Shown: positions 22,155 through 23,742 of the stretch, in pieces
Numbering within the stretch: position 1 is the first letter of the stretch
How the letters are laid out: each line of letters starts with the position of its first letter
Assembly: GCF_002214565.1 (NCBI RefSeq)
Contig: NZ_CP015106.1
Span: 992,001-1,056,000 of the forward strand
Source: Thermococcus radiotolerans
GTDB lineage: Archaea; Methanobacteriota_B; Thermococci; Thermococcales; Thermococcaceae
Length of the DNA stretch: 64,000 nt
Direction of reading: 5' to 3'
Translations under genes and position numbers: made by a program
The notes under the pieces: model-generated
What the model was told of the DNA's origin: nothing
Databases searched by the model: none
What the model saw: the letters and a program-made list of their open reading frames with translations, nothing else

Positions 22155-22163
22155 TATTTAAAA
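22155..22163 (-). promoter_or_regulatory. TATA box of the S10-spc superoperon
   Basis: TTTTAAATA on the minus strand with a GAAAGCC factor-B-type element directly upstream. It predicts transcription near 22134 and a leader of about 36 nt before the SPOUT gene. A 9-bp inverted repeat abuts it on the upstream side. Confidence 0.55.
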
Positions 22164-22167
22164 GGCT

Positions 22168-22199
22168 TTCGAACCCTTCCACCCTTTTTTGGGTTCGAA
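22168..22199. repeat. 9-bp inverted repeat upstream of the S10 promoter
   Basis: TTCGAACCC (22168-22176) and GGGTTCGAA (22191-22199) are perfect inverted copies separated by 14 bp. The element abuts the TATA/BRE of the ribosomal superoperon, so it could be an operator, or alternatively the last part of the neighbouring structured DNA. No function is known. Confidence 0.6.
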
Positions 22200-22220
22200 G
22201 GTGTACAAATTTTTTGCAAT

Positions 22221-22291
22221 CAGCCCTTTGCTTCGCATGTTGAGACTTTCGTCTCAACACGTCGGGAAGCTTCGCTTCCCACGAAGCGCTG
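22221..22291. repeat. Two hairpins enclosed by an outer stem (three-way junction)
   Basis: Hairpin 1: TGTTGAGAC-TTTC-GTCTCAACA (22238-22259, 9 bp). Hairpin 2: GGGAAGC-TTC-GCTTCCC (22264-22280, 7 bp). Both are enclosed by GCTTCG (22230-22235) pairing with CGAAGC (22282-22287), and further by CAGC (22221-22224) with GCTG (22288-22291). This gives a compact three-way junction on either strand. No coding capacity is evident. It could be a structured RNA or a DNA element; I do not recognise it. Confidence 0.6.
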
Positions 22292-22301
22292 GCGGAATGT
22301 T

Positions 22302-22451
22302 TTTGAGCGTGAGATTTGGAATTTGGTATGTTGCATGCACTTTTAATGTATTTCCTAGGAAGGGGTTTATCTCCAACCTGCTGTTTTTAATCGTGTTTTC
22401 TTATTGTTAGCGCCCTTCGGGCGCTGAGTTGGAGTAAAACACACGCTCAAA
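22302..22451. repeat. Nested inverted repeats, possible structured RNA of about 150 nt
   Basis: Three nested complementary pairs: TTTGAGCGTG (22302-22311) with CACGCTCAAA (22442-22451), CTCCAAC (22371-22377) with GTTGGAG (22428-22434), and a terminal hairpin AGCGCCC-TTC-GGGCGCT (22409-22425). All stems are perfect. The intervening DNA is AT-rich and non-coding. The pattern suits a folded RNA or the remains of a mobile element. It is part of the 524-bp gap between the SPOUT gene and the ATPase. Confidence 0.55.
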
Positions 22452-22510
22452 TTGATGAAATTTGGTGCAAACCCATTAAAACGCACCTCATTAAAATGGC
22501 ATGCAAACAT
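22328..22510. repeat. Imperfect long inverted repeat spanning the noncoding island
   Basis: The 21-base segment 22328-22348 (ATGTTGCATGC then ACTTTTAATG) matches the reverse complement of 22489-22510 (ATGTTTGCATGC then CATTTTAATG) with one indel and a two-base swap. It cannot pair at the same time as the 22302/22451 stem except as a pseudoknot, so alternative folding or DNA-level symmetry is implied. Such arms resemble ends of a small non-autonomous element. Confidence 0.45.
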
Positions 22511-22543
22511 TTCCATGTCCTTCTAACGGTGAAGACTTTTTGA

Positions 22544-22569
22544 TCAACCTTTGCTTGCGCAAAGGTTGA
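22544..22569. repeat. 11-bp perfect hairpin upstream of the ATPase gene
   Basis: TCAACCTTTGC (22544-22554), loop TTGC, then GCAAAGGTTGA (22559-22569). It lies about 14 bp before the tandem 19-bp repeats and 54 bp before the ATPase start codon. It could terminate upstream transcription or bind a regulator. There is no oligo-T tail directly after it on the plus strand. Confidence 0.55.
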
Positions 22570-22577
22570 GGGAAAGC

Positions 22578-22585
22578 CTTTTAAC
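22578..22585 (+). promoter_or_regulatory. Candidate TATA box of the ATPase gene
   Basis: CTTTTAAC on the plus strand, about 42 bp before the ATG, predicting transcription near 22606, within the tandem repeats. The last bases of the box belong to the first repeat unit, so a protein bound to the repeats would cover the promoter. Confidence 0.4.
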
Positions 22586-22621
22586 TTGCAGGGGTGCAAG
22601 TAACTTGTGGGGGTGCAAGTT
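22583..22621. repeat. Tandem pair of 19-bp palindromic repeats, upstream copy
   Basis: Two head-to-tail 19-bp units: AACTTGCAGGGGTGCAAGT (22583-22601) and AACTTGTGGGGGTGCAAGT (22602-22620), differing at two positions. Each is itself a palindrome (ACTTGC/GCAAGT around a G-rich centre). The second unit supplies the only plausible Shine-Dalgarno (GGGGTG) of the ATPase gene, whose ATG starts two bases after it. A matching pair follows the stop codon at 23704. Confidence 0.85.
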
Positions 22622-22622
22622 A

Positions 22623-23705
22623 ATGCTGTTTTCACCTTACCCAAAGACTAAGAGGGAAGAACTCTTTGACCGGGAAAGGGAACTCAAAGAGCTTGAGGAG
22701 GCCGTGAAGAGGAGAGAAAGGCTAATCCTCCTTCTTGGCCTAAGAAGGCTTGGAAAAAGCTCACTTCTCAACGTCGCACTCAACGAGCTCACCTACCCCT
22801 CAATAAAAGTCGACGTGAGAAAAACCTACTCCGAGTTCTCATCCGTCAACAGGTACGTAATCGGGAAGATGCTCCTTTCAGGGATGAGCGGAAGAAAAAA
22901 ACTAGTTGAGGAGGCAAAACTTTTCCTTGAGAGGGTCAAGGGAGTAAGCGTTTCCGGGCTCAAGCTGGAGATAACCTCAAAAGACTTCTCAATAACCGAA
23001 CTCTTAGAAGCGCTCAACGAATACGGAGAAAAAGCCGGGAGGGTCATCATAGCCTTCGATGAAGCCCAATACCTTCGCTTTGGAGGGGCAACGAGGTATG
23101 ACGGGATTCTCGCATACGCCATCGACAACCTCGAAAACCTAACCTTTATCCTCACTGGCTCCGAAGTTGGCCTTCTCTTCGACTTCCTTAAGTTTGATAA
23201 CCCGGAAGCGCCACTCTTTGGCAGATACCACCACGATGTAATCTTAGATAGATTCAGCCCAGAGATAAGTGCTGAGTTTTTGAGAAAGGGATTTGAGGAA
23301 GCCCATTTCGAAGTGAGCGGACGGGAGATCGAAGGTGCTGTGGGAGAACTCGACGGGATTCCCGGTTGGTTGGCTCTCTACGGATATACACGGGTCACAA
23401 AAAACCTTAGACACGAAGAGGCCATAAACGAAGTTCTGGGAGAGGCCAAGAGTTTAATCCAAACTGAGCTGTCGAAGCTCTTCGCCTACAGCCCAAGGTA
23501 CAGGGTTATTCTCAAGGCGATAGCCCTTGGGTATTCACGGTGGAAGGACATCAAGGACTATTTAACGCTCAAGCTCGGCTACATCAATGATTCGAATTTC
23601 TCAGCACTCCTTGAAAACCTCGTGAAGTCGGGCTACGTGGAGAAGAAAGAGGGAAGGTACATCATCCCTGATCCTGTACTTGAGAAAGTGTTCCGAGAGC
23701 TCTAA
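22623..23705 (+). CDS. Archaeal P-loop ATPase (PF01637-type, STAND-related)
   Basis: A 360-residue ATPase of the expanded archaeal family. Walker A is GLRRLGKSS at residues 39-47, Walker B is RVIIAFDEAQYL with Asp146-Glu147, a sensor-like FILTGSEVGLLF follows, and the C-terminal 90 residues look like a winged helix (YSRWKDIKDYL, LLENLVKSGYVEKKEGRYII). The true role is unknown for nearly all members. The reading frame fits exactly between two pairs of 19-bp palindromic repeats: the ATG is two bases after one pair, and the TAA overlaps the other. Base composition is visibly more AT-rich than the neighbours, which suggests transfer. An upstream in-frame codon at 22551 would run through the repeats and is rejected. 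Confidence 0.88.
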   Translation: MLFSPYPKTKREELFDRERELKELEEAVKRRERLILLLGLRRLGKSSLLNVALNELTYPSIKVDVRKTYSEFSSVNRYVIGKMLLSGMSGRKKLVEEAKLFLERVKGVSVSGLKLEITSKDFSITELLEALNEYGEKAGRVIIAFDEAQYLRFGGATRYDGILAYAIDNLENLTFILTGSEVGLLFDFLKFDNPEAPLFGRYHHDVILDRFSPEISAEFLRKGFEEAHFEVSGREIEGAVGELDGIPGWLALYGYTRVTKNLRHEEAINEVLGEAKSLIQTELSKLFAYSPRYRVILKAIALGYSRWKDIKDYLTLKLGYINDSNFSALLENLVKSGYVEKKEGRYIIPDPVLEKVFREL

Positions 23706-23742
23706 CTTGCACCCCCGCAAGTAACTTGTAGGGGTGAAAGTT
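23704..23742. repeat. Tandem pair of 19-bp palindromic repeats, downstream copy
   Basis: Units AACTTGCACCCCCGCAAGT (23704-23722) and AACTTGTAGGGGTGAAAGT (23723-23741), in the same order and orientation as the upstream pair. The first starts inside the ATPase stop codon. The second is followed by TTAAGTG, mirroring the TTAATG start context upstream, but only a five-codon frame follows. This suggests a duplicated or target-duplicated boundary. Confidence 0.82.

Follow-up and report, generated by a model that had tools for sequence, protein, structure and literature searches.

ATPases of the PF01637 (ATPase_2) family are frequent in archaea, often with several members per genome, and are uncharacterised. 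Two solved relatives of the ATPase analyzed here were found using phmmer, namely, PAB2304 of Pyrococcus abyssi (2QEN, E 1.5e-76) and SSO1545 of Sulfolobus (2FNA, E 1.9e-50). The gene encoding the ATPase (360 residues) occupies positions 22623..23705 of the forward strand, including the stop codon, in the window (the whole analyzed DNA stretch of 64,000 nucleotides) and was assigned using Pfam, phmmer, the predicted structure and fold matches. The PF01637 score of the protein is 75.7 bits versus the Pfam gathering cut-off of 33.2, which makes it a member of the family. Its predicted structure (pLDDT 92.5) shows TM scores of 0.90 and 0.87 with 2qen and 2fna, respectively, and the three proteins are alike in sequence, fold, length and the presence of a C-terminal winged helix. 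According to Pfam (MCM_C, residues 290-345) and the predicted structure, the MCM_C-like winged helix is located at the C-terminus and is encoded by positions 23493..23672 of the forward strand (residues 291-350). Lower-scoring fold matches included Cdc6/Orc1, ORC, CED-4, MalT, RuvB and TnsC; the PDB matches with the STAND members CED-4 and MalT reached TM scores of 0.44-0.57 only. In addition, a comparison with the anti-phage defence families of PADLOC gave a partial, weak match with PDC-S27 (E 2e-10). The DUF234 domain, present in a neighbour type of 468 aa, is absent from the window ATPase. The dN/dS values of the gene (0.04-0.11) indicate purifying selection.

The gene is flanked by two tandem pairs of a palindromic unit, which were delimited by motif counts and comparison with related loci; the units have no assigned strand. 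The upstream pair (22584-22620) consists of unit 1, ACTTGCAGGGGTGCAAGT (22584..22601), and unit 2, ACTTGTGGGGGTGCAAGT (22603..22620), and ends two bases 5' of the ATG at 22623. The downstream pair (23705-23741) consists of ACTTGCACCCCCGCAAGT (23705..23722) and ACTTGTAGGGGTGAAAGT (23724..23741), and its first base is the last base of the TAA stop codon (23703-23705). A BRE/TATA-like element, GGAAAGCCTTTTAA (22571..22584, forward strand), recognized in the sequence and in the consensus of 37 homologues aligned on unit 1, is the putative promoter, and the GGGGGTG motif within unit 2 (22609..22615, forward strand) is a Shine-Dalgarno-like sequence of presumed function. When up to two mismatches were allowed, 11 matches of the unit were found in the window versus 2.5 expected, a count reached by none of 100 shuffles. 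In the 1.87-Mb genome, the best matches apart from the four units have two mismatches, and two of these matches form the pair of a different ATPase subfamily. The neighbouring genes, both on the reverse strand, encode a putative RNA methyltransferase (PF02598; 21328..22155) on the left and a Pab1020-type RNA ligase (PF09414, PF18330; 23899..25044) on the right; they were identified using Pfam and synteny and served as synteny markers. The GC content of the ATPase gene is 0.486 versus 0.566 and 0.554 in the neighbours, and its GC3 is 0.58 versus 0.71 and 0.75. The preliminary description of this site, in which the gene of a 360-residue archaeal ATPase, more AT-rich than its neighbours, lies between four copies of a 19-bp unit in two pairs, the first ending two bases before the ATG and the second beginning in the stop codon, agrees with these data except for the unit length, which is 18 bp with a period of 19 bp. 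Species-variable, REP-like short palindromes, CAACCTTTGC..GCAAAGGTTG and GCGCCCTTCGGGCGC, were also observed in the window at 22545-22568 and in the interval 22160-22570.

Taken together, the data presented below make it reasonably probable, in our estimation, that this is a self-regulated ATPase gene whose flanking direct repeats allow its excision and exchange. The upstream tandem palindrome, located between the TATA box and the start codon, would be the operator of the ATPase gene and would supply its ribosome-binding site, and the winged helix of the ATPase itself probably binds this operator and represses transcription.

The upstream palindrome was analyzed in 125 non-redundant homologues from Thermococci, other archaea and Thermotogae, thinned at 90% identity. 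A strict test for a tandem palindrome directly 5' of the start codon was passed by 44% of them, compared with none of 620 other 50-mers taken from these loci and with 1.7% of the shuffled sequences; the value of 44% is an underestimate of palindrome-bearing starts, since many homologues that fail the test belong to subfamilies with one long palindrome instead. The commonest geometry is an 18-bp unit with a 19-bp period, in which unit 2 usually ends 0-2 bp 5' of the start codon. In the consensus of the 37 aligned homologues, unit 1 directly follows the BRE/TATA-like element and the Shine-Dalgarno-like core lies within unit 2; the arms vary by subfamily and the position relative to the TATA box is constant. 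The pair of the window type (type A) is present in 28 of the 61 genomes of the genus, mostly in the methyltransferase/RNA ligase interval. Paralogues at other loci, with 39-55% identity, carry other palindromes at the same position (ACTTACCCCGGGGTAAGT, CCCCCCACCAGTAACTGGTGGGGGG, AGTATCGGTACCGATACT, GGTAACGGTACCGTTACC, ACTTATGCCCCCGTAAGT, TTGGACGTCCCCCATAATGGGGGTGTCCA and others), and at least nine distinct palindromes are distributed by subfamily, all in the same position 5' of the start codon. When named genomes were searched, the arrangement was also found in Desulfurococcales, Thermoprotei, Hadarchaea, Thermoplasmata, Metallosphaera (for example, AGTTACAGGGGTGTAACTAAGTTACAGGGGTGTAAC-TTG), Caldarchaeum and Thermotogae. 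As for the latter, the Thermotogae-binned genomes L378, L382, L383, L385 and L390 carry the same ATPase, in L390 with a tandem palindrome (ACTATCACCGGTGATAGTTACTATCAGGGGTGATAGT-ATG), which points to either transfer between archaea and bacteria or mis-binned contigs.

A-type genes found at another locus (L062, L064 and L073; 75-77% identity) retain the A palindrome. Since the palindrome stays with its protein subfamily also where the gene occupies another locus, it is most likely an operator bound by the gene's own ATPase, and since the genome contains no other good copy, no wider regulon is visible. The position of this putative operator and the family-wide co-diversification of the palindrome with the ATPase subfamily are established at the level of sequence. 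A conserved palindrome at the gene's own promoter is what an autorepressor is expected to have; binding and repression are predictions. When protein columns were analyzed for covariation with the arm bases, the top-ranking column (322) lay at the edge of the recognition helix, but the winged helix as a whole showed no enrichment; relatedness dominated the signal, and some palindrome registers were mis-called. ATPases of the DUF234 type (L016, L074) have a palindrome, GTGATAATCACC..GGTGATTATCAC, ending at the start codon, and the trait may thus reach beyond the subfamily of the window ATPase. No description of start-codon palindromes of PF01637 genes, or of a bracketing second copy, was found in the literature searched, which consisted of open-licence papers. 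One literature lead, a "DUF234" in a transformation screen, proved to be the unrelated DUF2341.

Of 124 homologues, 24 have a copy of the palindrome directly 3' of the stop codon; the shuffles gave none. Such copies occur in types A, B, C and G and in some members of type F, and types D and E are without them. If the upstream pair is the operator, the downstream pair would be a second site of the same kind, likewise bound by the ATPase. In a different reading, it is a relic of a past tandem duplication of the gene with its operator, or of passive recombination, now functionless and accompanied by an ordinary upstream operator. This reading agrees with the lack of a downstream copy in most subfamilies and with the missing, single or degraded copies at many type A loci: among 17 occupied A-type loci, seven are without the downstream pair and two have a single unit, which means that the ATPase gene persists without the second copy. 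However, comparison of the downstream pairs of filled type A loci with the upstream consensus revealed only 7 changes per 180 positions in the arms and as many as 41 per 144 in the centre (P 3e-10), i.e., the arms are approximately seven times better conserved. Retention of the arms with drift of the Shine-Dalgarno-like centre fits a second protein-binding site, and type C has the downstream copy in all ten occupied loci examined. A functionless relic is regarded as an unlikely explanation. The type C palindrome is also often located directly 3' of the stop codon of a convergent ATPase gene from another subfamily (L203, L207/L226, L229, L236, L384), as if single type C sites had attracted other ATPase genes.

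With the same sequence on both sides, the gene plus one pair would constitute a direct-repeat cassette, and recombination between the pairs would remove the gene exactly and leave one pair. For such a cassette, some relatives should carry one repeat and no gene between joined flanks, and this state was found in types A, B and C, where the same site contains either palindrome, gene and palindrome or one palindrome without the gene. At the gene-less type A sites G002 (L057) and G059 (L082), the promoter is followed by one pair and then by the downstream flank. The left flank of L057 is identical to that of the filled locus L069 at 232 of 249 positions, and the right flank to that of the filled L076 at 138 of 160; in L082, the right flank matches L069 (232/249), and the left flank matches the filled L081 only near the pair (144/243 over 250 bp). 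In type B, sites with one pair, no gene and both flanks are present in G004, G011 and G039. The empty site of G011 has a left flank identical to that of the filled G032 at 246 of 250 positions without gaps and a right flank identical to that of the filled G030 at 218 of 249. Its single pair consists of upstream unit 1, the downstream linker and downstream unit 2; the single pairs of type B are such hybrids of upstream and downstream pairs. As for type C, two palindrome copies surround the gene and one is found where the gene is absent, the window's own genome included; the right flanks of the compared loci align less well (135/205 and 114/208), and decayed single copies are under-counted because the sites were found by a pattern search. 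The direction of single events is not readable, since the products are the same whether the gene entered a one-pair site or was excised from a two-pair site. At four other type A one-pair sites (L058, L063, L067, L078), the pair is of the downstream type and the promoter is missing; simple excision does not yield such sites. Decayed 3' ends of the ATPase gene are present in L070 and L074, which were rejected as empty sites; together with the promoterless pairs, these two loci indicate more than one route of gene loss.

Several further features of these sites were observed. In the window genome, a single type C palindrome (L401, 224950) has an M20 peptidase gene on one side and an Lhr-like gene on the other, and a type F pair (L400, 1724336) lies between two unrelated genes, both with no adjoining cognate ATPase. 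The methyltransferase-RNA ligase interval of relatives (L056, L060, L066, L074, L082) is a hotspot containing PF01637+DUF234 ATPases and a convergent gene whose product varies in its N-terminal part and is constant in its C-terminal tail (..LEVLSIL.GLEFA..); in L067 and L068, only the tail of this gene is left. Pfam gave no match for the tail protein.

More evidence came from the comparison of the ATPase genes with their flanks. The ATPases of L071 and L056 are 98.0% identical versus 86.8-89.9% for the flanking genes; the corresponding values are 91.7% versus 81-84% for L069 and L076, and 91.8% versus 78% for the window and G009. The window and L081 differ in the opposite direction (ATPase 78%, flanks 92%). 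Such values demonstrate that the gene, as judged from the aligned loci, has been exchanged between species independently of its flanks, and homologous exchange of this kind may restore or replace the gene. Transfer of an exact cassette between the window and G009 was rejected: the block of high identity (~22290-23400) extends past the upstream pair on the left and ends inside the gene, whose 3' end falls to ~82%. These boundaries lie off the palindromes, as expected from homologous recombination. Four other pairs of loci can be aligned approximately from the promoter to the downstream pair, which alone is no proof of a cassette boundary, since the intergenic DNA there turns over fast. On the tree of the flanking genes, the filled state of the window's site required 13 Fitch changes for 14 filled tips, and shuffled labels required as many (mean 11.8); this count is a measure of scatter rather than a dated history, because the flanking genes of the region also recombine.

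The comparisons establish the present and absent states of the gene and its exchange between species, and the direct-repeat cassette reading holds likewise for at least two other ATPase subfamilies at other sites. Autoregulation and a mobile or duplicating cassette had been proposed as alternatives in the preliminary description, and the favoured reading takes parts of both. From the first, it keeps a predicted binding site, as every subfamily examined, in archaea and in Thermotogae, carries a palindrome of its own in the same position 5' of the start codon. From the second, it keeps the single pair with both flanks in some gene-less relatives and the exchange independent of the flanks, and it drops the term "mobile element", no mobilising enzyme or replicon having been found. 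Precise bracketing is true of the window gene and is not universal, as the downstream pair is absent from several occupied loci. The unit is not scattered away from ATPase genes, and gene-less syntenic strains keep one pair rather than all four units.

A stronger version of the cassette reading supposes a transposase-free mobile cassette, in which the ORC/STAND-like ATPase recognizes its own subfamily-specific palindromes on both sides of the gene and itself takes part in precise excision and re-insertion at one-palindrome sites; the palindrome would double as an operator, this role being secondary. It would account for the precise gene-less states in three subfamilies, the hybrid single pairs, as expected from recombination inside the repeat, the scattered presence among species, the two different loci of A-type genes and the weak fold similarity of the ATPase to TnsC and RuvB. 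Nevertheless, only ATPase and winged-helix families were found in the window protein, with no nuclease, transposase, integrase or recombinase domain; the site is mostly one fixed syntenic place; a search for relatives of the ATPase in plasmids, phages and viral contigs gave no match; subfamilies D and E have the upstream palindrome and no downstream copy; and the exchange between the window and G009 ends outside the repeats. The ATPase may take an active part in movement, although neither an enzyme domain nor a mobile replicon supports this, and the active cassette as a whole is considered quite improbable. If it were true, each subfamily would represent a distinct specificity type of a single element widespread in archaea.

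Control at the RNA level was also considered, in which an mRNA hairpin with the Shine-Dalgarno sequence in its loop tunes translation and the copy after the stop codon forms a 3'-end hairpin. In nearly all subfamilies, unit 2 encloses the GGGGG core just 5' of the start codon, and the downstream copy immediately follows the stop codon, as such control would require. However, unit 1 adjoins the TATA box, and with the usual archaeal spacing it would lie upstream of the transcription start, leaving half of the pair untranscribed; the fixed 19-bp period better suits a DNA-bound protein; and downstream copies retain the arms and lose the GGGG centre. These features make RNA-level control very doubtful. 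Finally, a chance arrangement or a general genomic repeat family lying merely beside the gene, suggested by the richness of thermococcal intergenic DNA in REP-like short palindromes, is rejected as having practically no likelihood, given the window shuffles, the lack of other good copies in the genome and the recurrence of this arrangement at homologues throughout many archaeal lineages.

The family-wide rule of an own palindromic site 5' of each PF01637 gene offers a first testable handle on the function of these ATPases, which probably act as DNA-binding, self-limiting switches. The precise presence or absence of the gene beside a retained palindrome provides a natural experiment on how archaeal chromosomes gain and lose single genes when no mobile-element enzyme is evident. 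The favoured reading, a self-regulated gene in a direct-repeat cassette, with its recombination machinery and direction of events being presumptive, can be compared with several known systems. The tests run place the cassette outside both the insertion sequences and the integron cassettes. It resembles both in that a gene plus one repeat is gained or lost, with the promoter and one repeat staying behind at the empty site. It differs in having no integrase or transposase, in palindromes specific to each gene subfamily and in a mostly fixed site; no integrase gene was present in the occupied loci read, and subfamily-specific palindromes stand in the place of attI/attC sites. With the Cdc6/Orc1 origin-binding initiators, the best fold match outside the family (2qby, E 3e-9), the ATPase shares a P-loop ATPase followed by a winged helix, whereas the TM score is only 0.48 and the identity 14%. 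Like autoregulated prokaryotic regulators with an operator between the TATA box and the start codon, the window gene has a palindrome just 3' of a TATA-like element, a winged helix and no visible wider regulon; unlike them, it encodes an ORC/STAND-like ATPase, has a putative operator whose sequence differs by subfamily and carries a second copy of it after the stop codon.
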